This document shows, in pieces, positions 14,440 to 64,000 of a DNA stretch of 64,000 bases. A program made the translations under genes and the position numbers. The DNA is from Actinoplanes ianthinogenes (GTDB taxonomy: Bacteria; Actinomycetota; Actinomycetes; Mycobacteriales; Micromonosporaceae): NCBI RefSeq assembly GCF_018324205.1, contig NZ_AP023356.1:5190001-5254000 (forward strand), given 5' to 3'. The notes below the pieces were generated by a model, which had not been told where the DNA came from, made no database searches, and saw only the letters and a program-made list of their open reading frames with translations. Positions within the stretch are counted from its first letter, which is position 1. Each line of letters opens with the position of its first letter.

Positions 14440-16428
14440 ATGGTCCTCGACATGTTCGCTCCGCCCCGCTGGGCCGCTCTCCTGACCACACCGCTGGTCA
14501 CCCTCGGCGTGGCGATCGGTCTGTCCGATTCCGCCGCCGCCCATCCGTCCTCGATCTCACCCGCGGCCACCCGGGCCGCTCTCGATCCGGCCCTGGTCGC
14601 CGGACGCGGCGCAGGAGTCGCGTTCACCGAGCAGGAGGCCGAGCACGCCGTCACCACCGGCGCCGTGCTCCCCGCCGACCGGACCGCATACACGCTCGCC
14701 GCCGAAGCCTCCGGCCGCTCCGCGGTCACCCTGGACCCGGGCGAGTACGTCGAGTTCACCCTGCCCAAGGCCGCCAACGCGATCACCGTGCGGTACAGCA
14801 TCCCGGACGCGCCGACCGGCGGCGGGATCACCGCGCCGCTCTCCGTCGGCACGCCGGGCGGCACCCGCACCATGACGCTGACCTCGCAGTACTCCTGGCT
14901 CTACAACCAGTACCCGTTCACCAACGACCCGCAGGCCGGGTTGCTGCACCCGGACTGGTGGATCACCGAGTGTGCCTGCGTGCCGGCCGCCACCGAGCCG
15001 GCGCCGGCGATCAGCAAGCCGTTCCGGCCGATGCACTTCTACGACGAGCAGCGGCTGGCGCTGGGTCGTACCTACCGGGCCGGTGACAAGATCCGGCTGA
15101 CCGCGCGCCAGGTGCCCACCACCATCGACCTGCTCGACTCGGAGCTGGTCGAGGCTCCGAAGATCGACCTCAAAGCGGTGAACGTGCTGCTGTTCGGCGC
15201 GGACCCGACCGGCCGGCGGGACTCGGCCGGCGCCATCGAGAAGGCCATCGCGTTCGCCAAGAAGGTGCACCGCGCGGTCTACCTGCCGCCCGGCACGTTC
15301 CAGGTGAACCGGCACATCATCGTCGACGACGTGACGATCACCGGGGCCGGCAACTGGTACACCACGGTCAAGGGCCACGAGGTTTCCCTGGACACGCCTG
15401 CCGCGGACGGCTCGGTGCACACTGGCGTCGGGTTCTACGGAAAAGACGGTGGCTCGCACAACGTGCACCTGGCCGACTTCGCGATCGAGGGCGACGTCCG
15501 GGAGCGGATCGACACCGACCAGGTGAACGCGATCGGCGGCGCGATGAGCGACTCCACCATCACCGGGCTGCACATCCAGCACACCAAGGTGGGCCTCTGG
15601 TTCGACGGTCCGATGTCGAACACCACGATCAGCGGCAACATCGTCGTGGACCAGATCGCCGACGGCCTGAACTTCCACGTCGGGGTCAGCGACTCGCTGG
15701 TGCGGAACAACTTCGTCCGCAACACCGGTGACGACGCCCTCGCGATGTGGTCGGAGAAGACCGCGGACAGCCGTAACACCTTCGACCGCAACACCGTCCA
15801 GACGCCGACCCTGGCGAACGGCATCGCGATCTACGGCGGCGCGGACAACACCGTGTCCCGGAACCTGATCGCCGACCCGATCCGGGAGGGCAGCGGGATC
15901 CACGTCGGCTCGCGGTTCGGGGCCGAGCCGTTCACCGGCCACCTGTGGATCACCGACAACACCACGGTGCGGGCCGGGACGTACGACCTGAACTGGAACA
16001 TCGGGCTCGGCGCGATCTGGTTCATGGCGCTCGACTCCAGCATTGACGCGGACATCCGGGTGACCGGGGACCACTACCTGGACAACACCTACAACGCGAT
16101 CATGCTGGTCTCCGAGTGGGGGGTGAAGGACCAGTACTCGATCAACGGCGTGCACTTCAAGGACGTCCGGGTGGACGGGACCGGCACCAGTGTGGTCAGC
16201 GCCCGGACCGCCGGCGGCGCCTCGTTCGAGAACGTCGACGCCCGCAACGTCGGCGCGGCCGGGGTGAACAACTGCGGTTCGTTCCACTTCACGCCGAGCG
16301 GGTCCGAGTTCACCCTCAGTGACCTCGGTGGCAACGACGGGGGCTGGCTCGGCCCGTACCTGCCGAACGTGATCACCTGTGACGACCGTCCCGCGGTCGT
16401 CCCGCCTCCGCCGCCTTCGTCCTGGTGA
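14440..16428 (+). CDS. Secreted beta-helix glycoside hydrolase (GH87 alpha-1,3-glucanase/mycodextranase-like)
   Basis: 662 aa with a Sec signal peptide (cleavage likely after SAAA near residue 33). Residues about 60-200 resemble a carbohydrate-binding beta-sandwich (LDPGEYVEFTLPKAANAITVRYSIPD). From about 245 (VNVLLFGADPTGRRDSAGAIEKAI) a right-handed parallel beta-helix begins, with DGLNFH and NTGDDALAMWSEK carrying the paired aspartates expected of a GH87-like site, and many N-x-hydrophobic rungs. The C terminus is a short proline tail. Predicted to cut an alpha-glucan outside the cell. GH87 is the best guess from the fold and motifs; another pectate-lyase-like family is possible. AGGA lies eight bases before the ATG. 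Confidence 0.7.
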   Translation: MVLDMFAPPRWAALLTTPLVTLGVAIGLSDSAAAHPSSISPAATRAALDPALVAGRGAGVAFTEQEAEHAVTTGAVLPADRTAYTLAAEASGRSAVTLDPGEYVEFTLPKAANAITVRYSIPDAPTGGGITAPLSVGTPGGTRTMTLTSQYSWLYNQYPFTNDPQAGLLHPDWWITECACVPAATEPAPAISKPFRPMHFYDEQRLALGRTYRAGDKIRLTARQVPTTIDLLDSELVEAPKIDLKAVNVLLFGADPTGRRDSAGAIEKAIAFAKKVHRAVYLPPGTFQVNRHIIVDDVTITGAGNWYTTVKGHEVSLDTPAADGSVHTGVGFYGKDGGSHNVHLADFAIEGDVRERIDTDQVNAIGGAMSDSTITGLHIQHTKVGLWFDGPMSNTTISGNIVVDQIADGLNFHVGVSDSLVRNNFVRNTGDDALAMWSEKTADSRNTFDRNTVQTPTLANGIAIYGGADNTVSRNLIADPIREGSGIHVGSRFGAEPFTGHLWITDNTTVRAGTYDLNWNIGLGAIWFMALDSSIDADIRVTGDHYLDNTYNAIMLVSEWGVKDQYSINGVHFKDVRVDGTGTSVVSARTAGGASFENVDARNVGAAGVNNCGSFHFTPSGSEFTLSDLGGNDGGWLGPYLPNVITCDDRPAVVPPPPPSSW

Positions 16429-51024: not shown

Positions 51025-52554
51025 GTGGCTGTCCGTTCCCGCCTCGGCTCCCGGCGCCGCCGGCTTGCCGTCCTGCTCGCCGTGGCGGCCGGGGCGGCCG
51101 GCGCCGGCGTCTGGGCCGGGCACCGGATCGAGTCCCCGGCGGACGCCGCGCGGCGGGCGTCGCCGCCCGCGGCCAGCCCGATCACCGTGCCGGTGGAGCG
51201 CCGGGTGATCGCCACCTCGATCGTGGTCCGCGGCGACGTGCAGTACTCCGAGGAGTACGCGGTCGTCCCCGACCCCGACGTGGGCCAGGGCGCCGGCACG
51301 ACCACGCCGGTGGTGACCGGGCGGCTGCCCCGCAGCGGCAGCACCCTCAAGGAGGGCACGGTCGCCCTGGAGGTGTCCGGCCGGCCGATCATCGCGTTGC
51401 AGGGCACGCTGCCGATGTACCGGGCGTTGAAGCCGGGTGCCAAGGGCGCCGACGTCACCCAGTTGCAGACCGCGCTGCGCCGGCTCGGGCACCTCGCCGG
51501 GCGGCCCAGCGGGACCTTCGACGCGGCCACCACCGCCGCGGTCAACCGGCTCTACGACGCGGTGGGCTACGACCCGGTCGCGCCCACCCCGGACGAGACG
51601 CAGCAGGTCGAGGCGGCCGAGCAGCGGGTGACCGACGCGCACCAGCAGACCGTCGCGGCGCAGCAGGCGCTGGCCGCGGCCCGGTCCGGCCCGCCCCGAT
51701 CGCAGGTGCTCGCCGCCGAGGGTGCGGTCGACTCCGCGCGCCGGGCCCGTGACCTGGCCAGGACGGAGCGGGACACGGCCAAACGCACCGGCGCCGACAC
51801 CGCCACGCTGACCCGGCTGGACAACGCCCTGGCCGACGCGGAGAACGCGCTGGCCGTCGCCGAGGCCCAGCTCGCGGAGCTGACGGCGACCACGGACACC
51901 ACGTCACTGCGCCGGGCGGTCACCACCGCGCAGGCCACCGAACGCACCGCCCGGACGGCGCTCACCCAGGTGCGCGCCGCGTCCGGCGCCCGCCTGCCGC
52001 GCGGTGAGATCGTCTTCGTGCCCACCCTCCCGCGCCGGGTGCAGAAAGTGGAGGCCAAGCTCGGCCAGGCGGTCGAGGGCGCGGCGCTGAGCCTGACCGC
52101 GACCACCGCGCGGATCGACACGTCGATCAGTGAGGAGGAGCGCAAGGTGCTCAAGGCCGGCGCCGAGGTGCAGGTCGACGACACCTCCTCGGACGTCAAG
52201 TTCACCGGCGTGGTCGCCGAGATCGCCGACACGGCGGGGACGAACGGGGCGTTGGCCGGCACCTACTACGTCCGGATCGACCCGCGGGGTGTCGACCCGA
52301 AACGGATCGAGGGGCTGAACCTGCGGGTCACCATGCCGATCGAGTCGACCGACGGCGAGGTGCTCGCCGTGCCGGTCGCCGCGCTGGTCACCGATGCGGC
52401 CGGCACCACCACGGTGCGGGTCCGGCGGGGGAGAGCCGATGCGGACGTCCCGGTCACCGCGGGTCTCTCCGCCGACGGGTTCGCCGAGGTCACCCCGGTC
52501 GGCGGGGCCCCGCTCGCGGAGGGCGACCTGGTCGTGGTGGGCCAGCAGTGGTGA
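51025..52554 (+). CDS. Efflux adaptor-like protein with peptidoglycan-binding domain
   Basis: 509 aa; GTG starts directly after the lipoprotein stop. One N-terminal span (about 13-33), then a membrane-fusion-protein plan: half barrel-sandwich (ITVPVERRVIATSIVVRGDVQYSEEYAVV), a PG_binding_1 domain (about 133-175, LKPGAKGADVTQLQTALRRLGHLAGRPSGTFDAATTAAVNRLY), a long coiled-coil hairpin (about 192-320), and C-terminal beta domains (VLKAGAEVQVDD, RIEGLNLRVTMPIES, VPVAALVTDAAG). It links the ABC unit to the cell wall. Confidence 0.88.
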   Translation: MAVRSRLGSRRRRLAVLLAVAAGAAGAGVWAGHRIESPADAARRASPPAASPITVPVERRVIATSIVVRGDVQYSEEYAVVPDPDVGQGAGTTTPVVTGRLPRSGSTLKEGTVALEVSGRPIIALQGTLPMYRALKPGAKGADVTQLQTALRRLGHLAGRPSGTFDAATTAAVNRLYDAVGYDPVAPTPDETQQVEAAEQRVTDAHQQTVAAQQALAAARSGPPRSQVLAAEGAVDSARRARDLARTERDTAKRTGADTATLTRLDNALADAENALAVAEAQLAELTATTDTTSLRRAVTTAQATERTARTALTQVRAASGARLPRGEIVFVPTLPRRVQKVEAKLGQAVEGAALSLTATTARIDTSISEEERKVLKAGAEVQVDDTSSDVKFTGVVAEIADTAGTNGALAGTYYVRIDPRGVDPKRIEGLNLRVTMPIESTDGEVLAVPVAALVTDAAGTTTVRVRRGRADADVPVTAGLSADGFAEVTPVGGAPLAEGDLVVVGQQW

Positions 52555-53276
52555 CCACCGAGGTGCTCGCCGTCCCGGAGACCCCGGTGATCGAGCTGGC
52601 CGGCGCCTCCCGCGTCTATCCGGGTGCCAGCCCGATCGTGGCGCTGCGTCCCACCGACCTGGCGGTCCTGCGCGGGGACGCGGTGGCCATCACCGGGCGG
52701 TCCGGGTCCGGCAAATCCACCCTCCTGCAACTGCTCGGCCTGCTCGACCGCCCGACCGCGGGGCAGTACTGGCTGAACGGCGTGGACACGGCCGCGATGA
52801 CCGACCGGCAGCGCACCCGGTTGCGCGGTTCCCGGATCGGCTTCGTCTTCCAGTCGTTCCACCTGATCGCGCACCGCACCGTCGAGGAGAACGTCCGGCT
52901 CGGCCTGATGTACCGCGGCGTGCCTCGGGCGCGACGCCGGCAGCGCGCGCTCGACGCGCTGGCCCGGGTCGGGCTCGCCGACCGCGCCGACGCGCTGCCC
53001 GGCGAGCTCTCCGGCGGCCAGCGCCAGCGAGTCGCGATCGCCCGGGCACTGGCGATCGAACCGGCCGTGCTGCTGGCGGACGAGCCGACCGGCAACCTCG
53101 ACACGCATACCGCGGAGGACGTGTTGCAGCTGTTCGACGCCATCCACCGGGACGGCCAGACGCTGGTGGTGGTGACCCACGATCAGGACGTCGCGGCGCG
53201 GATGCCCCGGCGCCTGATGATCACCGACGGGCTGGTCGTCGAGGATCTGCCCCGCGAGGCCGGGCATGTGGCGTGA
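52551..53276 (+). CDS. MacB/LolD-type ABC ATPase
   Basis: 241 aa, GTG overlapping the adaptor stop by four bases. Walker A GRSGSGKSTLL, Q-loop VFQSFHLI, signature LSGGQRQRVAIARAL, Walker B VLLADEPTGNLD, H-loop VVTHD. The DEPTGNLD form is typical of MacB/LolD/FtsE ATPases that drive FtsX-type permeases, as encoded next. Confidence 0.94.
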   Translation: MTTEVLAVPETPVIELAGASRVYPGASPIVALRPTDLAVLRGDAVAITGRSGSGKSTLLQLLGLLDRPTAGQYWLNGVDTAAMTDRQRTRLRGSRIGFVFQSFHLIAHRTVEENVRLGLMYRGVPRARRRQRALDALARVGLADRADALPGELSGGQRQRVAIARALAIEPAVLLADEPTGNLDTHTAEDVLQLFDAIHRDGQTLVVVTHDQDVAARMPRRLMITDGLVVEDLPREAGHVA

Positions 53277-54459
53277 CCTGTGGGACGAGGCGCTGGCCGG
53301 AGTGCTGGCCCGGCCCGGACGGACCGCGCTCACCGCGCTGGGCACGGTGCTGGGCACCGCCACGCTGGTGATCACCACCGGGCTGGCGGACACGGCCGGC
53401 GCGCAGATCGTCAGCCGGTTCGACGAACTGGCCGCCACCACCGTGACGGTCGCGCCGACCCCGGAGGACGGGCCGCAGGCCAGAGAGAGCCCGATCCCGT
53501 GGGACGCTCCGGCCCGGCTGAGCCGGCTCAACGGTGTCGAGGCGGCGGCGACCATGACCACCCTGCGCCTGCCCGACGCGAAGATCACCGCGACCACTGT
53601 GGTCGATCCGCTCGCCGCGAAAGGCGCGGCGGCCACTGTGGTCGCCGGGTCACCCGAGTTGGCGGCGGCCGTGGAGGGCCGGGTCATCGGCCGCTTCTTC
53701 GACGCCGGTCACGATCGCCGCGCGGACCGGGTGGCGGTGGTCGGCCGGAACCTTGCCAACTCGCTGCACCTCGCCGACCTGCGGCAGCGGCCGGCGATCT
53801 TCGTGGGCAGCCAGTCCTTCACGGTGATCGGGGTACTGGTCGACACTCGCCGCAACGCCGGCCTGCTCGACGCGATGATCCTGCCGGAGGGAACGGCCCG
53901 CCGGGTGTTCGGCCTCAAGGCCCCGGAGTCGGTCGTCATCGACACCGCGGTCGGCGCGGCCGCCCTGATCGCGTCCCAGGCGCCGGTGGCGCTGGCCCCG
54001 CAGAAACCGGAACTGCTGACCGCCGAGCGGCCACCCGAACCGACCACCACGAAAGCGAAAGTGGCCGAGGACGTCCGCGCGCTTTTCGTCTTGCTCGGCG
54101 TCATCTCACTGGTCGTCGGAGGCGTCGGAATCGCTAATACGACACTTGTCTCCGTGCTCGAGCGGATCGGCGAGATCGGTCTGCGCCGGAGCCTGGGCGG
54201 GACCCGATTCTCGGTCGCCTCGCTCTTCATTCTGGAATCGAGCATGATCGGCCTGATCGGCGGAATTCTGGGATCGTCGGCGGGCATTCTCGCGGTGGTT
54301 CTGGTCGGCGCCGTCAAACAATGGACGCCGGTGCTCAACATCTGGATCATGCCGGCCGCCGTCCTGGTCGGAGCGGTGGTCGGACTGCTCGCCGGGCTCT
54401 ATCCGTCGCTGCGCGCGGCGAAAATCGAACCGATCGCCGCGCTCCGGGCGCAGGCCTGA
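53266..54459 (+). CDS. MacB/FtsX-type ABC permease
   Basis: 397 aa, overlapping the ATPase gene by 11 bases. One span near the N terminus (ALTALGTVLGTATLVITTG), a large extracytoplasmic domain (about 45-265), and three spans at the C terminus (LFVLLGVISLVVGGVGI, MIGLIGGILGSSAGILAVVLVG, IMPAAVLVGAVVGLLAGLYPSL), the FtsX/MacB four-span plan. It uses ATP hydrolysis to transmit movement to the exterior and push out a peptide, lipid or antibiotic. Confidence 0.93.
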   Translation: MWRDLWDEALAGVLARPGRTALTALGTVLGTATLVITTGLADTAGAQIVSRFDELAATTVTVAPTPEDGPQARESPIPWDAPARLSRLNGVEAAATMTTLRLPDAKITATTVVDPLAAKGAAATVVAGSPELAAAVEGRVIGRFFDAGHDRRADRVAVVGRNLANSLHLADLRQRPAIFVGSQSFTVIGVLVDTRRNAGLLDAMILPEGTARRVFGLKAPESVVIDTAVGAAALIASQAPVALAPQKPELLTAERPPEPTTTKAKVAEDVRALFVLLGVISLVVGGVGIANTTLVSVLERIGEIGLRRSLGGTRFSVASLFILESSMIGLIGGILGSSAGILAVVLVGAVKQWTPVLNIWIMPAAVLVGAVVGLLAGLYPSLRAAKIEPIAALRAQA

Positions 54460-54552: not shown

Positions 54553-54963
54553 CTAGAAGCCCCAGTTGTGGATCCGGACGGTGCAGGTCGAGCCGGCGCA
54601 GCCGGCCCAGTAGGCGTCGGAGTTGCTCTGCTGGTCGTAGAACTGGAAGTTCACCCAGCTCCCGCCGCTGCAGCCCTGCGTGGTGGTGCCCGGGTCGTAG
54701 TACTTGATGCAGTTCTGGTAGCCGTCGGTGTAGGTGTCGTTCACCTTGCCGCGGTAGTTGCTGTCCCCGTCACAGGTGGAGGCGTACTGCACCGCCTCCT
54801 GGCCCCGGAGGATGCCGCCGATCCACAGGTTGAACGGCGAATACGGGTTCCCGACGCCGCTGCAGTCGGCCATGGCGGGTGACGCCGAGACGCCGACCAG
54901 CACGGTGGCGGTGGCCGCAGCGACGCCGAAGCCGGCGGCGATGCGTTTGAGGGTGATGGACAT
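54553..54963 (-). CDS. Small secreted cysteine-containing protein
   Basis: 136 aa from ATG 54963. A clear signal peptide (MSITLKRIAAGFGVAAATATVLVGVSASPAMA) is cut before DCSGVG. The mature chain of about 100 residues has six cysteines (DCS, STC, NCI, GCS, GCA, TCT), enough for three disulfides, and many aromatic and Asn/Gln residues. Family not recognised. An upstream 14-bp palindrome may regulate it. Confidence 0.75.
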   Translation of the reverse strand: MSITLKRIAAGFGVAAATATVLVGVSASPAMADCSGVGNPYSPFNLWIGGILRGQEAVQYASTCDGDSNYRGKVNDTYTDGYQNCIKYYDPGTTTQGCSGGSWVNFQFYDQQSNSDAYWAGCAGSTCTVRIHNWGF

Positions 54964-55351
54964 GACGATGAATCCCCGATTCTCGAATAGGGTCATCCTG
55001 GAATGCGAGAAAGCAGCTGAACGGAAATGTGATGCGGCCGCAGATCGGCCGGCCGACCATACGAGCCGTCATTCCCAGGTGGCCCCCGCTCCCCGGATCA
55101 GCGGATCCAATGTGGAATCCGTTGACCTGAAGTTAGCAGTGGGAAACTGTCCGTGGATACCCGCTGTCCATAGACGTCTATGAATGTCTGAGTTGTCCGT
55201 ACGGGCACATGGCGAATCTGCTCGGACATGCGTGACGGTATGCTGGCGAGAACGTTTTCCCGGACATTTTTGAAAGCCGGAAAACAAAACCGGCCCGACA
55301 TCAGTTGATGCTGCGGGCCGGTCGGGCGGATCAGGTGCCGCGTGGGCGTCC
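54964..55351. other. Intergenic region with two palindromes
   Basis: CATAGACGTCTATG (55169-55182) is a perfect 14-bp palindrome, and GAGAACGTTTTC (55248-55259) is palindromic with one mismatch, reminiscent of LacI-type operators. GC content drops here. Both are upstream of the small secreted-protein gene and downstream of the nucleosidase gene. No gene is supported. Confidence 0.6.
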
Positions 55352-55927
55352 CTACTGGTGGTGACGGTTGTCGCGGAGCCAGGTGGCCAGCGCGCGGGCG
55401 CACTGGTGCAGATTCTGCTGCCAGGTGGCGGCCGCGGTGGAGCCAGCCTGGTCGCTGACGTGTTTGATGAGGCGGATGGGTACGGAGAAGTGGCTGGCCA
55501 CGGTGGCCAGGGCGTAGCCCTCCATGTCGACCAGATGCGCGTGGTCGGCCAGGCGGGTGCGGGTGGTCTCCTCGGCGACGAACTGGTCGCCGCTGGCCAG
55601 GGTGAGGCCGCGTTCGGCGACCGTCAGTGGCGGGCCGACCAGGTGGCCGGTCAGGGTGTAGAGCGCACGGGCGTCGATGTCGTGCTGGATGACCCTGCTC
55701 ACCTCGTGGGTGCCGGTGATGCCGCCGCGCAGCGAGCCGGCGGTGCCGAGGTTGATCAGAGCGGACGGGCGCGGACCGGCGGCCAGCACGGCGGTCAGGG
55801 CCAGGGCGGCGTTCACCTTTCCCATGCCGGTGATGAGGATGGGCAGGTCACTGTCGAGCATCTCCGCTTCGTCGGAGAGGGCGACGACGAGCAGGGGGCG
55901 GTCCGGGCGAATGGTGCCGCTTTGCAT
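55352..55927 (-). CDS. MTA/SAH nucleosidase-like phosphorylase-superfamily protein
   Basis: 191 aa, shorter than typical Pfs/MTAN (about 230). The PNP_UDP fold is recognisable: ILITGMGKVNAALALTAVL, INLGTAGSLRGGI, LASGDQFV, the purine- and ribose-contacting VDMEGYALA (Met-Glu pair) and the catalytic aspartate in KHVSDQAG. It likely cleaves S-adenosylhomocysteine, methylthioadenosine or 5'-deoxyadenosine, products of the methyltransferase and radical SAM enzyme encoded nearby. Its ATG is 22 bases after the adenylation gene. Confidence 0.82.
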   Translation of the reverse strand: MQSGTIRPDRPLLVVALSDEAEMLDSDLPILITGMGKVNAALALTAVLAAGPRPSALINLGTAGSLRGGITGTHEVSRVIQHDIDARALYTLTGHLVGPPLTVAERGLTLASGDQFVAEETTRTRLADHAHLVDMEGYALATVASHFSVPIRLIKHVSDQAGSTAAATWQQNLHQCARALATWLRDNRHHQ

Positions 55928-55948
55928 GGGCTGTTCCTCGGTCCTGGT

Positions 55949-57439
55949 TCAGGGGGCCGTGAGGCGGGCCGCGACGGAGGCGGTGAGGGTGTCGAGCAGA
56001 GTCCGGGCGTCGGTCTTGCCGTTCGTGGTCACGGGGATGGCGGGGACCTGGCGGATGACGTCGGGGACGGAGTAGTGCGGTAGCCGGGAGGCGAGCAGGC
56101 GGCGCACCGCGGGCGGCTCGACGGCGGTGGCCGTCGTGTAGAAGAGGGCCAGCTTGTCGTAGGAGCCGGGCCGCCCGTCCGCGGCGGGCACCGGGACCAC
56201 CACGCACTGGTGAAGGCCGTCGATGCGGTGGGCGGCGACCTCGATCTCGGCCGGTTCGATCCGGTATCCGCGGATCTTGACCTGCCGGTCGGCCCGCCCC
56301 CGGAAGTGCAGCAGTTCGTCGGCGTCGCGCCGTCCCAGGTCGCCGGTGCGATAGACCCGTACCGGGCGGCCGTCGACGACCCGTTCGACGAAACGCTCGG
56401 CGGTCAGCTCCTCCTGCCCGAGGTATCCCAGAGCCAGGCCGTCGCCGCTGATGCAGATCTCGTCGTCGACGAGGTGGATCCCGGTGCCGGGGACCGGGCG
56501 GCCGAGCGGAATCCCGTCGGTCCGCTCCAGATCGGCCCTGGTGATGGTGTGGTACGTGGCGAACACACAGCTTTCGACCGGGCCGTAACCGTTGGCCAGC
56601 GTGATGTCCGGATAGCGACGGAGGAATCGCTCGACATGTGCCGGGGAAAGCCTTTCACCACCCGTTATCACATGCTTCAGGCCGGTGAAGCATTCCGGCT
56701 CGAGATCTGTGAAGAGATTGAACAGTGACGCTGTCAGCCAGAGCGTGTTGACGTTCTCCTCGGCGATCAGCCGGTGCAGCACGTGCGGGAGCAGGTGATC
56801 GTCGTCGGCGACGACCGCGGTCCCGCCCGTGGTGAGCATGCCCCACAGCTCCAGGCTGAAGGCGTCCCATGCGGGCGGCGATGCCTGGCACATGACCCGG
56901 CCGGGCCCGAAGGCGAGCGGCCCGGACGGGGCGAAGAGCCGGGTGGTCGCCCGGTGCGGCGAGAGGACCCCTTTCGGTACGCCGGTCGTGCCCGAGGTGA
57001 AGAAGACGCACGCGGGCGCGTCCGGGGTGATCTCCGCCTCGGGCGGGGTGCCCCCGGCAGCGGCCCATTCGTCCAGGCCACGACCGGTCGGATCACAGAC
57101 CGGCGTCCCCGGCGGGGCGGGCTGATCCGTGATCAGCACTGGTGGGGCGAGGAGCTGGAGCAGGACGCCGACGCGTTCGGCCGGCCAGCGCCGGTCGATG
57201 GCGGCGTAGGCCGCGCCGCACTTGAGCACCGCGAGCAGAGTCATCGCGAGGTGGGCGGAGCGTCCGAGGCTGACCGGGACGATCGTTCCCGGTCCGACCC
57301 CGAGTGCGGCCAGCTCGGCGGCGCAGGCGTCGGCCGCCGCGTCCAGGGTCCGGTAGTCGACGCGTGATCCGCGATGGATCACAGCGACGGCCTCAGGCTG
57401 TTCGGCGGCGTGTGCGGCTATTACCTTGTGTATCAACAA
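55949..57439 (-). CDS. Stand-alone adenylation (A) domain, NRPS type
   Basis: About 496 aa if it starts at TTG 57439 (TTG 57436 also possible; GAGGAA upstream). Codons further upstream read open but lie under the divergent regulator's leader. The core motifs are intact: A3 FFTSGTTGVPKG, A5 NGYGPVESC, A7 YRTGDLGR, A8 GRADRQVKIRGYRIEP and the A10 lysine in VTTNGKTD. The aspartate of AWDAFSLELW at the first specificity position points to an alpha-amino acid. No carrier or condensation domain is attached; a carrier protein or free acceptor must be elsewhere. It should form an aminoacyl-AMP. Confidence 0.9.
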   Translation of the reverse strand: MLIHKVIAAHAAEQPEAVAVIHRGSRVDYRTLDAAADACAAELAALGVGPGTIVPVSLGRSAHLAMTLLAVLKCGAAYAAIDRRWPAERVGVLLQLLAPPVLITDQPAPPGTPVCDPTGRGLDEWAAAGGTPPEAEITPDAPACVFFTSGTTGVPKGVLSPHRATTRLFAPSGPLAFGPGRVMCQASPPAWDAFSLELWGMLTTGGTAVVADDDHLLPHVLHRLIAEENVNTLWLTASLFNLFTDLEPECFTGLKHVITGGERLSPAHVERFLRRYPDITLANGYGPVESCVFATYHTITRADLERTDGIPLGRPVPGTGIHLVDDEICISGDGLALGYLGQEELTAERFVERVVDGRPVRVYRTGDLGRRDADELLHFRGRADRQVKIRGYRIEPAEIEVAAHRIDGLHQCVVVPVPAADGRPGSYDKLALFYTTATAVEPPAVRRLLASRLPHYSVPDVIRQVPAIPVTTNGKTDARTLLDTLTASVAARLTAP

Positions 57440-57524
57440 TTTAAACCAGCACTTCCTCGGACAGATTTGCTGCCCGACTACGGCCCTGCATTCCGGGGGC
57501 CCGCACCACAACGGGGGAACGACG

Positions 57525-58556
57525 ATGGAAAACGACGGCGTCGGTGGCATTTTTCACTGGGAGCATCTTGACGACGAAGCGGTTCGCGTCTACGAGTTCG
57601 CCACCAATCGGGCGGATGTGAGCACGACCGAGATCGCGGCGTCGCTGGACGTCGAGGAGAAGGCCGCCATCCGGGCGGTGGAGCGGCTCTCCGCGGCGGG
57701 GCTGCTGCGGCCGGCGGGCAGGATGGACCCGCGCGGCTCCGCGCTGGAGGAACGCTTCAGCGCCGTGCCGCCGGACACCGCGCGGATCCAGTTGCTGGCC
57801 CCGGTGATCGAGCACATGGCCGGCCTTCAGCAGGAGGTGGACCGGGCGCGGCTGGACATGGAGAACCTGCTTCCCGGTTACCGGGCCAGCCTGCTGCGGC
57901 GGGTGTGCGAGAACTCCGTCGAGCGGCTGCACGATCTGGCCAGCGTCCACCAGGCCATCACCGACCTGGCCGGGCGGTGCCGGGGCGAGGTGCTCACCTC
58001 GCAGCCCGGCGGCCCGCGCTCGGAGGAGATCCTCCAGGAGTCGCTGCCGCGTACGACGCACCTGCTGGAGCGGGGCGTGCAGATGCGCACGATCTACCAG
58101 CACACCGCGCAGTACAGCCCGGTCACCGTCTCCTATGTGGAGCGCGTCACGGCGCTCGGCGCACAGGTGCGGACGTCGGCGGAAGGCATGTACCAGATGA
58201 TCGTCTTCGACCGCGAGGTCGCGGTGCTGCCGCTGCTGCACGATCCGGTGGGCGCGCTGGTGGTGCGGGAGCCGAGCATCGCCGGGTTCGCCGCCGAGGT
58301 CTTCGACCGGGCCTGGGTCGACGCGACGCCGTTCGCCACGGCGATCGACCGGGAGCGGACCCGGTGGACGACGCAGGACATCAAGAGCCGCATCACCCGG
58401 CTCCTCGTGGAGGGGCTGGAGGACAAGGCGATCGCCCGCAAGATGGGGATGTCGCTGCGCAGCTGTCAGCGGCACATCGCCGACATCATGGCCCAGCTCG
58501 GCGCGCGCAACCGGTTCCACGCCGGCTATCTGATCGCCCAGCAGGAGCTCGACTAG
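57525..58556 (+). CDS. TrmB/LuxR-type transcriptional regulator
   Basis: 343 aa, GGGGGA upstream of ATG 57525. An N-terminal winged helix of TrmB type (DDEAVRVYEFATNRADVSTTEIAASLDVEEKAAIRAVERLSAAGLL) is followed by a helical linker (about 95-125), a phospholipase-D-like/TrmB effector region (GVQMRTIYQHTAQYSPVTVSYVE, VFDREVAVLPL) and a C-terminal LuxR helix-turn-helix (ITRLLVEGLEDKAIARKMGMSLRSCQRHIADIMAQLGARNRFHAG). Such regulators sit in many actinobacterial biosynthetic clusters. It is divergent from the A-domain gene and converges with the ATP-grasp gene. Confidence 0.9.
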   Translation: MENDGVGGIFHWEHLDDEAVRVYEFATNRADVSTTEIAASLDVEEKAAIRAVERLSAAGLLRPAGRMDPRGSALEERFSAVPPDTARIQLLAPVIEHMAGLQQEVDRARLDMENLLPGYRASLLRRVCENSVERLHDLASVHQAITDLAGRCRGEVLTSQPGGPRSEEILQESLPRTTHLLERGVQMRTIYQHTAQYSPVTVSYVERVTALGAQVRTSAEGMYQMIVFDREVAVLPLLHDPVGALVVREPSIAGFAAEVFDRAWVDATPFATAIDRERTRWTTQDIKSRITRLLVEGLEDKAIARKMGMSLRSCQRHIADIMAQLGARNRFHAGYLIAQQELD

Positions 58557-58560
58557 CCGG

Positions 58561-59841
58561 TCACGCACGGCCGGAGCCACAGGCGGCGGTGAGCTGCGCG
58601 GCGGGCACCTCGCGCCGGCCCTCCTCGGTGTCGAGCACGTAGGTGACCCGCCGCAGCGCGTCGGCCAGCGTCCGGGACATGGCCGCGTGGTCGGGCGCGT
58701 CACCGGCCAGCAGGTCCAGTTCCCCGGTGTGCACGCCGCCGGGCAGCGCCTCCCCGGCGCGGACATAGGGCCGGAACTGGCGGATGCCGGGGACACGCGC
58801 GGCGTCGGCGACACCCCGGATCTCGGCGACCGTGCACGGATAGCTCGGCGTCAGCGTCAGGTGCTGGAAGTAGACCTGAGCCGGTCGGGCCCGCTCGATC
58901 TGCGGCCGTTCGCCGAGCGCGATCCGGCACGCCACCTCGACGAGGTCGACGCCGGTGGCACGGCGGGCCAGTTCGGCGATGCTGCCTCCGAGCCGCCCGT
59001 TGACCTCGATGATCCGGGGGCCGTCCGGCGTCAGCTTGATCTCGATGTGGCTGAGGCCGCCGGTGATGCCGAGGGCCCGGACGGCGGCGACGGCGAGCTC
59101 GGTGACCTCGTCCTCCTCGTGCGCGCCGAGGTGCGACGGCCAGAAGTTCCCGGCTTCGCGGAAGGGCGGGGTGAGGGGGTATTTGCCGGTCACGGCGATG
59201 GGGTGGACCACCCCGGCGACGGTTGCGCACTCCACGGACACGTAGTCGCCGTACAACGGTTCCGGGCGTCCGGTGAGGTACTCCTCGACCACGAGTTCGT
59301 CTTCCGGGCCGGCCAGCAATGCGCGTACCCGAGTCTCGCCCTCCTCGACCCCCTCGATCAGGAAGGTGTTGCGGCTGCCCTCACCCGAGCGGGGTTTGAG
59401 GACGGCCGGCAGGCCGGTGTGGCTGACCGCTTCTGCCCACTGCTCCGGGGAGGTCAGCAAGCGGCTGCGGACCGGGCTCACGCCGGCCTCGGCGAGGGCG
59501 GCGCGCTGGCGGTACTTGTCGGTGAGCAGTTCGGCGGTGCCGGGGCCGTGGAAGGGCAGGCCGAGGCCGTCGGCGAGGGTCGCCGTCCGGCGCAGCATGC
59601 GCTCGCTGAAGGTCACGATCCCGTCGGGCTTCCACTCCGAGAGCAGCTCGGCCTGCTCGGCGAGGGTCGCGCCGGCCGGTGTCACCAGGTCGGCGTCCTG
59701 GAAGAAGCCGGCCATGCCGGCGGCGTGCGCCGACTCGCCGAGGACGATGGCCATCGGCGAGAAGATCCGTGCCACCCGGCTGATCTCCAGGGGCGACGCG
59801 GAGCCGGTGTCATAAACCACGGCGAGTCGGGCACGTTCCAT
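58561..59841 (-). CDS. ATP-grasp ligase (amino-acid/dipeptide ligase type)
   Basis: 426 aa. The ATP-grasp core is plain: a preceding domain with LLTDKYRQRAALAEAGVSPVRS, LPAVLKPRSGEGSRNTFLI (ATP-binding Lys and glycine loop), EEYLTGRP, and the metal-binding IIEVNGRLGGS. The plan resembles L-amino-acid ligases and carboxylate-amine ligases that make an amide through an acyl phosphate. In this cluster it probably joins an amino acid to another amine. It stops five bases from the convergent regulator. Confidence 0.88.
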   Translation of the reverse strand: MERARLAVVYDTGSASPLEISRVARIFSPMAIVLGESAHAAGMAGFFQDADLVTPAGATLAEQAELLSEWKPDGIVTFSERMLRRTATLADGLGLPFHGPGTAELLTDKYRQRAALAEAGVSPVRSRLLTSPEQWAEAVSHTGLPAVLKPRSGEGSRNTFLIEGVEEGETRVRALLAGPEDELVVEEYLTGRPEPLYGDYVSVECATVAGVVHPIAVTGKYPLTPPFREAGNFWPSHLGAHEEDEVTELAVAAVRALGITGGLSHIEIKLTPDGPRIIEVNGRLGGSIAELARRATGVDLVEVACRIALGERPQIERARPAQVYFQHLTLTPSYPCTVAEIRGVADAARVPGIRQFRPYVRAGEALPGGVHTGELDLLAGDAPDHAAMSRTLADALRRVTYVLDTEEGRREVPAAQLTAACGSGRA

Positions 59842-59865
59842 GACGGTTGCCTCCGAGTCGTGAGA

Positions 59866-60606
59866 TCAGGAGCGACGGGCGGTGATGTTCAGGCGGACGT
59901 AGTCGACGACCGGCTCGGTGAGCCGGGCCGCGACCTCCTGGACGAAGGGGCGGTGCTCCTCGGCCGGCAGCTGGTCGAGGTACGGGCCGAGGATCACCGT
60001 GCCGAGGAAGCTCCAGAGCTGCTCACCGGGCTCCAGGCGCGCCGGGTCGTCGAGCAGGTCCACCTGGACGTCCCGGAATCCGGCCTCCTTGAGCAGGACC
60101 TCGGTCTCCCCGATCCCGGCGAAGTGCGCCGCGTCGGCGGGACGCCCGAGCACCTCGGCGGCCGCGGTCAGCACCCGGGTGTTGCAGCCCTGCCCGCCGC
60201 ACTCGGCGACGAACTGGCCGCCGGGACGCAGCACCTGGGCGATGTTGGTGAAGAGGGTGCCGTGGTCGTGGATCCAGTGGAAGGTGGCGACGCTGAAGAC
60301 CGCGTCCACCGGCTCCGCCACCGGCAGCGGCTTCGTCAGGTCGGCGTTGATCACGTCGACCCGGTCCAGCCGGTCACCGAGGTTGGCGCGCAACTGCTCC
60401 AGCATCTTGGCCGATCCGTCGACGGCGACGACGCGGCCGGTCGGCAGCAGGTCGAGCAGGGCGGCCGTGTCCCGGCCGGTGCCCGCGCCCGCGTCCAGAA
60501 CGGTCTCGTCGCCCCGCAGGACGAGGCGATCCCGGGTGCGCTTGCCCCAGAACTTGTGCGGCAGCGGGAGCGAGTCGTAGGTCTTGGCGTCCCATTCACG
60601 GGGCAT
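59866..60606 (-). CDS. SAM-dependent methyltransferase
   Basis: 246 aa. Class I Rossmann methyltransferase: motif I VLDAGAGTGRDTAALL, the acidic residue ending VVAVDGSAKM, INADLTKPLP, motif IV VFSVATFHWIHD and post-motif VLRPGGQFVAE. Closest in pattern to trans-aconitate methyltransferase-like carboxyl or small-molecule methyltransferases. It starts inside the 3' end of the preceding gene (11-base overlap) and is followed by the ATP-grasp gene after 24 bases. Product SAH could be removed by the nucleosidase at 55352. Confidence 0.9.
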   Translation of the reverse strand: MPREWDAKTYDSLPLPHKFWGKRTRDRLVLRGDETVLDAGAGTGRDTAALLDLLPTGRVVAVDGSAKMLEQLRANLGDRLDRVDVINADLTKPLPVAEPVDAVFSVATFHWIHDHGTLFTNIAQVLRPGGQFVAECGGQGCNTRVLTAAAEVLGRPADAAHFAGIGETEVLLKEAGFRDVQVDLLDDPARLEPGEQLWSFLGTVILGPYLDQLPAEEHRPFVQEVAARLTEPVVDYVRLNITARRS

Positions 60607-61558
60607 GGGGGGTCTCCGGTTTCGGTCGGATGGTGACGGTGATCGTCCGGGGATTCCGGACGAGGTCGACGGCGCTGCCCCCGGCGGACCAGGCGGCGAG
60701 CCGGGTGGGCTCGGCGTCGTCGTCGGTGCCGTGGCCGGGGAGCAGACACTGGATCAGGATGTCGCGCAGGGCGACCCGGGCGTCGTCGAGGCCGAGCTCC
60801 CCGCGCAGGTCGCGCCGGGCCGAGACGTGGATCTCGGCCGGCCCTGGCGAGAGCCACTGGAGGGCCTCCGCGGCCAGGGCGGCGAGCAGGTAATCCTCCG
60901 GGCTGGGCGCCCGGTCGGCGCCGAAGAGCTGTTTGGGCTGATCGATCTCGACACCGGCCTGGCCCGCGGTGGCGACGGAGAACGCGCCGGCTTCCCATTC
61001 GACCCGCACCTCATGCGTACGGTCGTCGCGGGCGCCGTCGCCACCCGGGGGGATCGCCAGGTGCCTGCCGTCGGCCGACGCCGCGAGGACCCGGGGTGGC
61101 GAGCCTTCCGCCAGGGTGCGGTGAACGACGCTGTACGCCTGAACCTGGCCGACAACGATCAGGATCTGCTCGGCCGTCAGGTCGCCGGAGAGGTCCAGCT
61201 CGTAACCGAGTCCGCCGTCCCGGTCCGCGTACGCGCGCACCGAGATCCGCTGCGGCTGCGCCCCCTGGAGCGCCAGCGCCGTCGCGGCCGTCGCCGCCGC
61301 GGAGGCGCCGAGCGCCGTCAGGACCGCCTCCACCGGGGTCAGCAGTTCCCGGTTCGCCGACTCCGGCGCCCGCAGCCCGACGGTGAAGGGCCGGACCACC
61401 CGGGTCGGCCCGAGCCGCATCGGCAGCAGCCGGACCCGCTGGGTTCCGTCGGCGGCCGTGGTGGCCGACGCCTCCAGGGCGAGCTGCGCCTCCCAGGAGG
61501 CCGCCCGGCTGGCGACGACCAGGTCCCGCCAGCCGTCCAGATTCACACCCGCGAGCAT
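60596..61558 (-). CDS. Tandem OsmC-like protein lacking the usual cysteines
   Basis: 320 aa; ATG 61558 shares a base with the previous stop (TGATG). Two OsmC-like halves: residues about 25-160 (RPFTVGLRAPESANRELLTPVEAVLTALGASAAATAA ... ISVRAYADRDGGLGYEL) and about 180-310 (HEVRVEWEAGAFSV, PSPEDYLLAALAAEALQWL, AEIHVSARRDL). OsmC peroxidases use a cysteine at the end of the LLAALAAC helix and a second near CPV; here the first is Ser/Ala or Glu and the second is absent (NPRTITV). A binding or scaffold role is more likely than peroxide reduction. The fold call rests on pattern only. Confidence 0.6.
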   Translation of the reverse strand: MLAGVNLDGWRDLVVASRAASWEAQLALEASATTAADGTQRVRLLPMRLGPTRVVRPFTVGLRAPESANRELLTPVEAVLTALGASAAATAATALALQGAQPQRISVRAYADRDGGLGYELDLSGDLTAEQILIVVGQVQAYSVVHRTLAEGSPPRVLAASADGRHLAIPPGGDGARDDRTHEVRVEWEAGAFSVATAGQAGVEIDQPKQLFGADRAPSPEDYLLAALAAEALQWLSPGPAEIHVSARRDLRGELGLDDARVALRDILIQCLLPGHGTDDDAEPTRLAAWSAGGSAVDLVRNPRTITVTIRPKPETPHAP

Positions 61559-62556
61559 CAGGCTGCCCCCTTCTCCGCGAGAAGCCCCTGGAGCAGGGCG
61601 ATCAGCGGCTTCGGACTGTCGATCCCGGCGGCCACCCGGACCAGGGTGGGCGTGACACCGGCCTGCTCCCGTCGCCGTGCGCTCACCCCCGCGTGCGAGC
61701 GGAGCACCGGAATGCTGACCGGACCCGGCTGATCCGGGACGGCGAGCGGTGTCCGGGACTCGAAGGAGAGCAGGCCGCCGAAACCGCCGTGCGTCTCGAT
61801 CGCCCACGGGCTGTCGTCGAAACTCGGCCGGTGCACCACCGTCACGGCCGGGTGGCCGCGCAGGAAGGCGGCGACCTGGTCCGCGTTCGCCGTGTGCGCC
61901 GCCATCCGCAGGTCGAGCGTGCGCAGCGCCTGGGCCAGGAGACGGTCGGTCCACCCGTCCGGGCGGCCACCGGCGTGAGCGGCCTGGGCGGTCACCCGCT
62001 CCACCAGCCGTCGCGGTCCACACACGACCGAGGCGTCCAGCGCGGCGTGGTCGTCCAGGTACGGGTCGACGGTCTCGACCACCACCGTCGCCCCCAGGTC
62101 CAGGGGGCGCAGCAGTGCCGGGGAGAGCCCGGTGTTGTCGACCACCAGCTGAAGGTCGGTGCTGTGGGCCAGCTCCGCCAGCTCGTTGACCGGGATGAGG
62201 CGCATCGCCGGATCCGACAGCGACTCGGTGACGATCAGCTGGGTCTCCGGCCGGACGGCCCCGGCCACCGCGTCGACGTCGGCGCAGTCGGTGTACGACA
62301 CCGTCCGCCCCAGCCGCCGGAAGGAGTCCTCCAGGAACTCCCGGACCGGGCCGGAGATCCCGGCCGAGGCGATGACGTGACCGCCCGGGTTGGTCAGCGC
62401 GCAGACGGTCTGCGTCGCCGCCGCGGCGCCGCCGGCGAGCAGCGCGGCGGTCTCGGCCCCGTGCAGTTCGGCGATCCGGCTCTCGGCCGCCGCCTCCCCG
62501 GTCGCGGGGCGTTGCGTGGCGGCCTGGTGCAGCCAGGGTGCATCGAGGGTGGGCAT
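61558..62556 (-). CDS. Cystathionine-gamma-synthase-like protein without the PLP lysine
   Basis: 332 aa from ATG 62556, about 60 residues shorter at the N terminus than Cys/Met-metabolism PLP enzymes. Family landmarks remain: AALLAGGAAAATQTVCALTNPGGHVIAS, LVVDNTGLSPALLRPLDLGA, GFGGLLSFE and the C-terminal HAGVSARRREQAGVTPTLVRVAAGI. At the Schiff-base motif SATKYLGGH it reads TVDPYLDDH: the lysine is proline. The usual YSR-type phosphate-binding segment is also lost. It therefore cannot form the normal internal aldimine and looks like a pseudoenzyme or repurposed binding protein. Coupled to the OsmC-like gene by TGATG. Confidence 0.8.
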   Translation of the reverse strand: MPTLDAPWLHQAATQRPATGEAAAESRIAELHGAETAALLAGGAAAATQTVCALTNPGGHVIASAGISGPVREFLEDSFRRLGRTVSYTDCADVDAVAGAVRPETQLIVTESLSDPAMRLIPVNELAELAHSTDLQLVVDNTGLSPALLRPLDLGATVVVETVDPYLDDHAALDASVVCGPRRLVERVTAQAAHAGGRPDGWTDRLLAQALRTLDLRMAAHTANADQVAAFLRGHPAVTVVHRPSFDDSPWAIETHGGFGGLLSFESRTPLAVPDQPGPVSIPVLRSHAGVSARRREQAGVTPTLVRVAAGIDSPKPLIALLQGLLAEKGAA

Positions 62557-62567
62557 CGGCGCGCCCC

Positions 62568-64000
62568 TCAGCGGCGGCAGACCGGCGCGTCGGAGAGGCC
62601 GATCCGCTCGTGGAAGTAGTGGTAGATGATCTCCTCGTGCAGCGCCTCGCCATCCAGCGTCGGCTTGATCGCACGCCCGTCGTCGACCATCTCGACCAGA
62701 CCGCGCTCCAGCAGGTCGGTGAAGGCCGAGGCGAACGGCTCGGCGTTGAGCAGGTCGGCGCCGAACTGGGTCAGATAGCGGTCGAGCACGATCGGCTGGT
62801 TGGCCTTGAAGTTGAAGCCGAGCGCCGTGCCGATCGCCTTGTGCCCGTCCAGCTTGCGGCCGTGCGAGAGCGGCAGGCCCGGCTCGTTCTGCATGTGCCG
62901 GACGTAGGCGGCGATGTCGGTCTTGTTGTGCGTCTGCACGAACGAGTCCCGGTTGCCGCTGAGCCAGCCGTACGCCCCCGGGCCGTACGCGATCATGGTG
63001 TTGTACTGCTCCCACTTGTTCTTCGACGTCTGTGGGATGTTCCCGTTCTCGTAGGTCCCGGGCCGGCTCCACCATCCGCAGGGGCTGGGGTAGTACCCGT
63101 GGTCGAGCATCACCTCGACGGCCGCCTGCCGCATGAGGTAGGTCGTCTCCAGATCCGGGAAGTACCCCTCGCGGACCAGCCGGTCGCGTACCGCCGGGTT
63201 GTTCCAGACCGCCCGGTTGCCGATGCCCATCTCCTCGCGGTCCGCGTTGCGCAGCCGGTAGATGGTGATGGTCGGTACGCCCAGCTCGACCAGCGTGGTC
63301 AGGTCCTGCCGGACGGACTCGGGGGTCTGGTAGGGCAGGCCGAACATCATGTCGACGTTGAAGGGGCAGTCCGTGGCGATCAGGTTCCGGATCGCCTCCA
63401 GCGACTCGGCGGCGGTGTGCCGGCGCTTGGTGAACTCGTTCACCTCGTCCTGGAGGGACTGGACGCCGAGGCTGAACCGGTTGAACCCGAGGTCCCGGGC
63501 GAGCAGGAGGTTGTCCCGGGTGAAGTTCTCCGGGTTGCCCTCGATGTTGAACTCCGCGCTGTCGGTGAGCCGGTACTGCGAGCGGACGTGCTCGACCAGG
63601 GGCGCGATCGTCTCGCGGCTGTTGAGCAGCAGCGCCGCGGTCCCGCCGCCGATGTAGAAGGACTCGATCCGTGCCTCGGGGATCCAGTCGAAGCGGTCCA
63701 GGTAGCGGCGCGACTCCTCGATGAGCAGGTCCTGCCAGAGGCGCAGGGAGGCGTCCTCCTTGCCGCGCGGCACCAGCCGCTTCACGTAGTTGCAGAAGTG
63801 GCAGATGTAGTTGCACAACGGCAGGTGGAAGTAGAGGTGGGCGGGCTCGCCCGCGCCGGCGAAGCCGGCGATCTCCTCGGCCAGACTCTCTGCGGAGAGC
63901 TGGGCGCCGTCGTTGGAGGTGACGTTGATGTTGTACTGATCCCGCGGGATCTGGAGCTGGGGGTTGCGCTCCAGCAGCGCGCCGAGGTTCAACTCGAGCG
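62568..64000 (-). CDS. HemN-like radical SAM enzyme (right edge truncated)
   Basis: At least 477 codons; the frame is open through base 64000, so the N terminus is missing (TTG 63992 is an unlikely start). The [4Fe-4S] motif is CX3CX2C in LPLCNYICHFCNY, followed by ESFYIGGGTAALLL, FNIEGNPENF, FSLGVQSLQD and MMFGLPYQT, the HemN pattern; the HemN C-terminal domain follows (YGPGAYGW, GHKAIGTALGFNF). HemN relatives in biosynthetic clusters are often radical methyltransferases or cyclopropanases rather than coproporphyrinogen oxidases. The pseudo-PLP gene starts 11 bases after its stop. Confidence 0.92.
   Translation of the reverse strand, partial: LELNLGALLERNPQLQIPRDQYNINVTSNDGAQLSAESLAEEIAGFAGAGEPAHLYFHLPLCNYICHFCNYVKRLVPRGKEDASLRLWQDLLIEESRRYLDRFDWIPEARIESFYIGGGTAALLLNSRETIAPLVEHVRSQYRLTDSAEFNIEGNPENFTRDNLLLARDLGFNRFSLGVQSLQDEVNEFTKRRHTAAESLEAIRNLIATDCPFNVDMMFGLPYQTPESVRQDLTTLVELGVPTITIYRLRNADREEMGIGNRAVWNNPAVRDRLVREGYFPDLETTYLMRQAAVEVMLDHGYYPSPCGWWSRPGTYENGNIPQTSKNKWEQYNTMIAYGPGAYGWLSGNRDSFVQTHNKTDIAAYVRHMQNEPGLPLSHGRKLDGHKAIGTALGFNFKANQPIVLDRYLTQFGADLLNAEPFASAFTDLLERGLVEMVDDGRAIKPTLDGEALHEEIIYHYFHERIGLSDAPVCRR

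Follow-up and report, generated by a model that had tools for sequence, protein, structure and literature searches.

Three class C radical S-adenosylmethionine (SAM) enzymes have been studied in detail in vitro, and residues Y34, Y96, R153, D196, and S225 of NocN hold the second SAM, as stated in the consulted part of PMC12871812. Among the radical SAM enzymes that modify peptides, TvgB forms cyclopropylglycine from Val in a TVGG-repeat peptide, and the available part of PMC9062424 describes its cluster as the peptide, the radical SAM enzyme, a dioxygenase, and two transporters. The window analyzed here, a stretch of 64,000 nucleotides of Actinoplanes ianthinogenes (contig NZ_AP023356.1; G000:C1:5190001-5254000, within a single-contig genome of 9.9 Mb), ends in a gene cluster built around a HemN-like radical SAM enzyme. 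A sequence-only reading of the window had described seven minus-strand genes and one divergent, plus-strand regulator at 55352-64000 as biosynthetic-looking, and had expected the cluster to continue past the right edge. All eight genes were found as described, and the continuation contained genes for a TrmO-like protein, a peptidyl carrier protein-thioesterase (PCP-TE), a major facilitator superfamily (MFS) transporter, a tautomerase::TrmO fusion, and an alpha/beta hydrolase. The biosynthetic appearance of the gene set stood, but its extent did not: the core is larger (radical SAM enzyme, TrmO-like proteins, tautomerase, hydrolase, methyltransferase, and exporter), lies partly outside the window, and is shared with clusters that resemble those for ribosomal peptides. 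The cluster is real, conserved, wider than first seen, and undescribed in the literature searched, where no text combining its parts was found (including the consulted parts of PMC9062424, PMC6050322, PMC12871812, and PMC12710340), in line with the earlier statement that no characterized pathway has this gene set. It is best read as the nonribosomal branch (adenylation [A] domain, PCP-TE, and ATP-grasp ligase) of a class C radical SAM pathway that has ribosomal-looking relatives.

A scan of an 84,980-species collection with a pattern from the radical SAM protein returned 22 loci (L010-L031); such a pattern consists of short peptides matched exactly and can overlook relatives. Whole-genome searches contributed two more loci, L041 and L045. 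With the window counted, the radical SAM family comprised 25 loci. The family was sharply bounded, with scores of 791-897 bits in six genomes compared with at most 111.4 for the remaining matches, and it was rare. At an E-value of 1e-60, only the A. ianthinogenes genome itself was found among 396 genomes of its phylum. Profile A1 at 1e-80 recovered 5 of 297 genomes in the family of the L020 genome (the centre and three already known loci counted), 2 of 249 in the order of the L023 genome (the centre counted), and 1/398 and 1/188 in the phyla of L028 and L031, both of which were the centre genomes. Ten loci, namely the window, L010-L017, and L041, were designated type A, and the hosts of the nine besides the window include Actinoplanes, Streptacidiphilus, and Streptomyces. 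By tblastn, nine genes were present in all ten type A loci, encoding the hydrolase, MFS transporter, PCP-TE, TrmO1, radical SAM enzyme, cystathionine gamma-synthase (CGS)-like protein, OsmC-like protein, methyltransferase, and A domain. The ATP-grasp gene was found in 9/10 (missing from L011), a second TrmO in 9/10 (missing from L010), and the tautomerase domain in 8/10 (missing from L010 and from L013, where the contig ends). The recurrence of the same core in nine other loci indicates that the window cluster is not a chance assembly. A comparison of the neighborhood of the radical SAM, CGS-like, and OsmC-like trio, which the sequence-only reading had proposed, thus found the three genes together throughout type A, and the lack of conservation that would have spoken against a pathway was not seen.

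The HemN-like radical SAM gene (62568..64000, minus strand) has its start codon 55 bases past the window end. Its product contained the CxxxCxxC motif, and C81, C85, and C88 were invariant in the 19 aligned family members, which come from four phyla and show a mean column identity of 69%. NocN alone represented class C among the solved structures found. In the phmmer alignment with it, Tyr34, Tyr96, Arg153, Asp196, and Ser225 corresponded to Y75, Y134, R193, D235, and T264. Four of these (Y75, Y134, R193, and D235) were identical to NocN, T264 was a conservative change, and all five were invariant in 19/19. By analogy, the enzyme is expected to perform a one-carbon transfer of the class C type.

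TrmO is the N6-methyltransferase of N6-threonylcarbamoyladenosine (t6A) in tRNA. A TrmO-like gene was located within the radical SAM locus in 25/25 loci, often with two TrmO-like proteins per cluster or with one fused to the tautomerase. Between one and four TrmO_N matches were present in each of the six genomes checked; G595 and G596 have a lone match, which adjoins the radical SAM gene. The TrmO_N domain (PF01980) scored 86.1 and 84.0 bits vs. 26.8. The tautomerase started with Met-Pro in all 14 aligned sequences, as well as in the copy of the window cluster (P0005), and a model of the L020 domain (predicted local distance difference test [pLDDT] 86) matched Cg10062, cis-CaaD, and 4-OT in Foldseek, with a best E-value of 3.5e-8. 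No Pfam family exceeded its cut-off for the tautomerase of L023. The class I SAM methyltransferase (59866..60606, minus strand; PF13649/PF08241) was 66-76% identical to the six type A orthologs aligned with it. Genes for SAM supply were also encountered: metK adjoined the cluster in L012, L014, and L017, whose genomes held two, three, and three copies, respectively, and the end of metK was found beside L011. The A. ianthinogenes genome has one metK, far from the cluster.

The stand-alone nonribosomal peptide synthetase (NRPS) A domain (55949..57550, or a start at about 57439 if TTG is used; minus strand) exceeded the cut-off of TIGR01733 (327.5 vs. 317.4 bits), its C-terminal PF13193 match was slightly below cut-off (22.9 vs. 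24.5), and the A10 lysine was present at the 517 position. Alignment to a stretch of GrsA gave the specificity code DALWIGGVFK. The form DALW[ILVYF]GGVF(K) was constant in 10/10 type A loci, and we take its nearest known codes to be those for Val. The ATP-grasp protein (58561..59841, minus strand; PF02786 and PF02655 over cut-off), probably an amino acid ligase, matched the LAL_C2, BacD, and DdaF profiles weakly and far below their cut-offs. No condensation domain was found among the scanned genes of the window cluster. L011, which is without the ATP-grasp gene, instead contained a carrier protein-condensation (PCP-C) protein and a second A domain, for which the code read DFWNIGMVHK, a code for Thr. 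The combination of A domain, PCP-TE, and ATP-grasp protein, together with the PCP-C protein and second A domain of L011, favors the dipeptide-like product that had been suggested earlier. L018 (Paludifilum), a locus of the second type described below, also encodes an ATP-grasp protein, at 15021-16250, and in this protein the LAL_C2 domain is clear.

Two further proteins resemble disabled enzymes, as the earlier reading had proposed, and the expected catalytic residues were missing in other type A loci as well. In the CGS-fold protein (61558..62556, minus strand; PF01053, 184.1 bits), the column of the pyridoxal phosphate (PLP) Schiff-base lysine held Pro in eight type A loci and Leu in two, and on this missing lysine, an active PLP enzyme was rejected; distant CGS-like homologs in L028 and L030 keep the Lys. 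The tandem OsmC-like protein (60596..61558, minus strand; PF02566, 36.2 bits) was compared with the reactive-cysteine pattern that we presume for OsmC/Ohr proteins. The first Cys place of domain 1 held Ser, Asp, or Gly in 9/10 type A loci, the partner place held Ser or Gly in 10/10, and the first place of domain 2 held Glu in 10/10. The single Cys of the window protein lies elsewhere in domain 2, at a place common to L010. Identity to the window protein across type A was 46-57% for the CGS-like protein and 36-47% for the OsmC-like protein. The latter was strongly conserved elsewhere, for example in a DQPKQLFGxDxAPS-like stretch, which argues against decay. OsmC structures headed the fold search with its model, which was of moderate confidence (pLDDT 62). 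A search for OsmC-like orthologs in 200 genomes of the same family returned the A. ianthinogenes genome and two weak matches, with open reading frames (ORFs) listed for L007 only. To judge from their residues, both proteins appear to be conserved pseudoenzymes, the OsmC-like one probably so.

The second class, type B, comprised 13 loci (L018-L029 and L045) from Bacillota, Streptomycetaceae, and Caballeronia, with the same radical SAM, TrmO-like, and tautomerase core as type A. Their partners were a SPASM radical SAM enzyme (13/13), an alpha/beta hydrolase (13/13), a methyltransferase (12/13), and an MFS transporter (12/13); L028 gave no match for either of the last two and has another methyltransferase-like protein. 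A short precursor-like ORF adjoined the SPASM gene, itself a neighbor of the HemN-like gene. The encoded peptide reads R(I/V)(H/R)(L/M)... followed by approximately (D/E)GVxLxxVGA, with the variants GVTLSAVGA in Streptomyces, GIVLAANGA in Bacillus and Peribacillus, GVVQAVVGA in Paludifilum, TVVLSLAGA in Actinacidiphila, and GITLAVVGA in L045, and with two cores, GVTLAMVGA and GVSLAMVGA, in the Caballeronia precursor (L028). When the pattern was run in six frames over 747 kb (duplicates counted among the 47 sequences), all 13 type B loci and their duplicates matched and no other sequence did; the pattern was fitted to type B sequences, so the scan shows specificity rather than independent discovery. 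The motif had no match in the window, L004, L010-L017, or L041, and a hidden ribosomal precursor in type A loci was not found. A conserved putative precursor beside a peptide-modifying radical SAM enzyme, the mark of a ribosomally synthesized and post-translationally modified peptide, was present by sequence in type B and was not found in the window cluster. In the tree, type A formed one clade (99/98), which the ribosomal-looking L028 joined (96/96); with a midpoint root and the long branch of L028, a ribosomal to nonribosomal direction is suggested only.

Two remaining loci, L030 and L031 (type C), contained radical SAM and TrmO genes and gave no SPASM or A-domain matches; the precursor motif was likewise not found in L030. 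In the gammaproteobacterial L030 (11490-14490), the radical SAM gene was followed in a row by genes for a TrmO-like protein, a CGS that keeps its lysine, and a PrpF-like protein. In the myxobacterial L031 (3126-11948), a methyltransferase, a tautomerase, two TrmO-like proteins, an acyl-CoA dehydrogenase, a ThiS-like protein, and an AhpC/TSA-like protein were encoded around the radical SAM gene.

We infer from this gene content a metabolite altered by radical chemistry, and we lean, by a small degree, toward a cluster whose product is a small di- or oligopeptide of nonribosomal origin, modified by radical SAM chemistry of class C and then exported. The stand-alone A domain would activate a hydrophobic, Val-like amino acid and load it onto the PCP of the PCP-TE, and a second amino acid would be added by the ATP-grasp ligase or, in L011, by the PCP-C/A pair. 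The HemN-like enzyme would convert one SAM to a 5'-deoxyadenosyl radical and transfer the one-carbon (methylene) unit of a second SAM to an sp2 carbon of the substrate, presumably the Val-like aminoacyl or dipeptidyl group on the PCP-TE. The class I methyltransferase could play the part of C10Q beside C10P and finish the transfer, or it could methylate, and additional methyl groups may come from one or more of the TrmO-like beta-barrel proteins. The Pro1 tautomerase might move a double bond or proton, thereby creating or resolving an unsaturated intermediate, while the pseudo-CGS and pseudo-OsmC proteins could serve as binding or scaffold subunits, and the product would leave through the MFS transporter. 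The cassette is common to the 13 ribosomal-looking loci, and the same chemistry therefore probably serves two peptide-making systems. A bolder and somewhat doubtful extension is that one cassette of class C radical SAM enzyme, TrmO-like protein, and Pro1 tautomerase installs the same new modification on a scattered ribosomal peptide family and on an actinobacterial nonribosomal dipeptide, in which the A domain, PCP-TE, ATP-grasp ligase, and two pseudoenzymes would have replaced the precursor and SPASM enzyme and taken over substrate presentation.

The same cassette can be read differently. The HemN-like, TrmO, and tautomerase core may make one and the same small molecule or warhead in all loci, with no relation to the peptide backbone, and the NRPS-like genes (type A) or the peptide and SPASM enzyme (type B) would only attach or carry it. 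The tight constraint on the radical SAM protein across four phyla, while the assembly machineries of types A and B differ, is consistent with such a warhead, as is the composition of L030 and L031; yet no obvious small-molecule precursor gene common to all loci was seen, and the type B precursor adjoins the SPASM gene, with the HemN-like gene as a neighbor. This explanation is considered unlikely. Equally improbable in our estimate is a different radical step of the HemN-like enzyme (hydrogen abstraction, HemN-like decarboxylation, or desaturation), with all methyl groups supplied by the methyltransferase and TrmO-like proteins. HemN binds two SAM and is nevertheless no methylase, according to the consulted part of PMC12871812, and it was the nearer solved relative of the enzyme by phmmer (3.9e-19 vs. 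2.1e-15 for the methylase NocN); however, the place of NocN Tyr96 is His in HemN and Tyr in all 19 family members. An ordinary NRPS-like dipeptide cluster with decayed or accidental CGS-like, OsmC-like, and TrmO-like neighbors would agree with the common families into which the single domains fall, but the same odd proteins occur in 10/10 type A loci with largely the same residue losses, and this explanation was already disfavored and is very unlikely.

Several findings weigh against the preferred reading, a peptide altered by class C chemistry, in addition to the closeness to HemN. The NCBIfam cut-offs were not reached by the radical SAM enzyme for HemN (97.0 vs. 324.95 bits), HemW (117.7 vs. 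205.4), or HutW (143.4 vs. 400), the shortfall for HutW also fitting a different radical step, and all of the proposed one-carbon chemistry is drawn by analogy. The TrmO equivalog TIGR00104 (93.25) was missed by TrmO1 of the window cluster (81.4) and by the L020 protein (85.5). Type A and type B methyltransferases, aligned from 7 of 10 type A sequences (A3) and, of the 13 loci where the type B methyltransferase gave a match, from 8 (A4), could be matched only over a class I region of 145 columns, and their treatment as one orthologous family was not supported. The L011 genome contained one metK C-terminal match only, so a spare metK copy is not general; the OsmC-like protein of L017 retains one expected cysteine, at the first place of domain 1; and the nucleosidase of the window is not conserved. 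The Val-like reading of the A-domain code is approximate, and the tree root is arbitrary with L028 on a long branch. Neither a precursor nor a SPASM enzyme is common to types A and B, whose substrates could therefore differ.

The cluster belongs to a sharply bounded new radical SAM subfamily with constant partners, probably in class C, of which few enzymes are understood, and it includes TrmO-like proteins that apparently work outside tRNA and pseudoenzymes conserved within a pathway. One tailoring cassette apparently used for ribosomal as well as nonribosomal peptides is a natural experiment, and its ribosomal form comes with a short peptide as substrate, on which the chemistry could be followed directly.

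The cluster extends approximately 5 kb to the right of the window, to about G000 position 5258779. Upstream of the radical SAM gene, the order is TrmO-like, PCP-TE, MFS, a gap of 343 bases, and the tautomerase::TrmO fusion, all on the minus strand, and the plus-strand alpha/beta hydrolase is the last gene. Neighboring genes from MFS through ATP-grasp overlap by 1-20 bases or are separated by 11-24 bases, where the 11-base figure, between the CGS-like and radical SAM genes, depends on the CGS-like ATG at 62556. These overlaps and short gaps are in accord with the joint expression claimed earlier, and the genes of this run would be co-expressed. The A domain and nucleosidase genes, which are 21 bases apart, look instead like a second transcription unit, since the putative cluster regulator (57525..58556, plus strand) is divergent from the A domain and convergent with the ATP-grasp gene. 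The regulator starts with ATG at 57525, carries an N-terminal helix-turn-helix (HTH)-like region and a C-terminal LuxR-type HTH (PF00196, 28.3 vs. 23.5 bits), and has homologs in L010, L011, and L017. The nucleosidase (55352..55927, minus strand; PNP_UDP_1 superfamily) exceeded the cut-off of the nucleosidase family NF004168 (212.7 vs. 129 bits) and fell below that of the methylthioadenosine/S-adenosylhomocysteine nucleosidase PRK05584 (75.3 vs. 169). No homolog was found in the 22 loci L010-L031 or in L041 and L045. The membership assumed by the sequence-only reading was dropped, the nucleosidase being absent from the conserved set; it may be an accessory that clears SAM by-products.

Directly to the left of the cluster, a gene at 54553-54996 (minus strand) encodes a protein of 147 aa whose start looks, by eye, like a signal peptide; it had no Pfam or NCBIfam match and no homolog among the compared loci. 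Farther left (51025-54459, plus strand), the translations of three ORFs in a row resemble, by eye, a MacA-type adaptor, an ABC ATPase, and a MacB-type permease. Beyond the right end, L004 11258-19079 (G000 5261258-5269079) encodes a DUF6895 protein and an ABC-2 permease, along with a LanC-like protein and an ORF of 1047 codons. This may be a lanthipeptide cluster, and the last two genes were treated as separate from the cluster of the window. Near the S. griseofuscus cluster (L014 19932-21086), a 385-aa ORF was observed, with Pfam matches to the arginyl-tRNA synthetase N-terminal and DALR domains only. No plasmid copy was found by tblastn at an E-value of 1e-30, and a PHROGs search with three proteins gave no match.

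Among the known systems, the C10P/C10Q cyclopropanase of CC-1065 (PMC6050322) resembles the A. ianthinogenes cluster in pairing a HemN-like radical SAM enzyme, which uses two SAM, with a methyltransferase. It acts on a pyrrole, and the consulted part of PMC6050322 does not mention TrmO-like, tautomerase, or peptide partners; the likeness is drawn from its description. The HemN-like enzyme keeps the second-SAM residues of NocN, but the class C methylases NosN and NocN, as the consulted part of PMC12871812 describes them, belong to a thiopeptide indolic-acid context, with other partners and low similarity. TvgB, in the available part of PMC9062424, resembles type B in its peptide-modifying radical SAM enzyme and short Val-Gly-rich peptide, whereas the residue that precedes GA in type B is not always Val and the window cluster has no such peptide. 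Most of the aligned cluster copies of TrmO keep the RPNxxGxS- and DGTPVLDxKPY-like stretches of the TrmO_N family, but they score below the TrmO equivalog and sit in biosynthetic clusters. The tautomerase shares its fold and the Pro after the start Met with the 4-OT/cis-CaaD superfamily, is 15-17% identical to its ten top matches by fold, and is fused to or located beside TrmO. The ATP-grasp protein recalls the L-amino acid ligases BacD and DdaF, although its partner genes differ and its scores are far below the cut-offs of those families.

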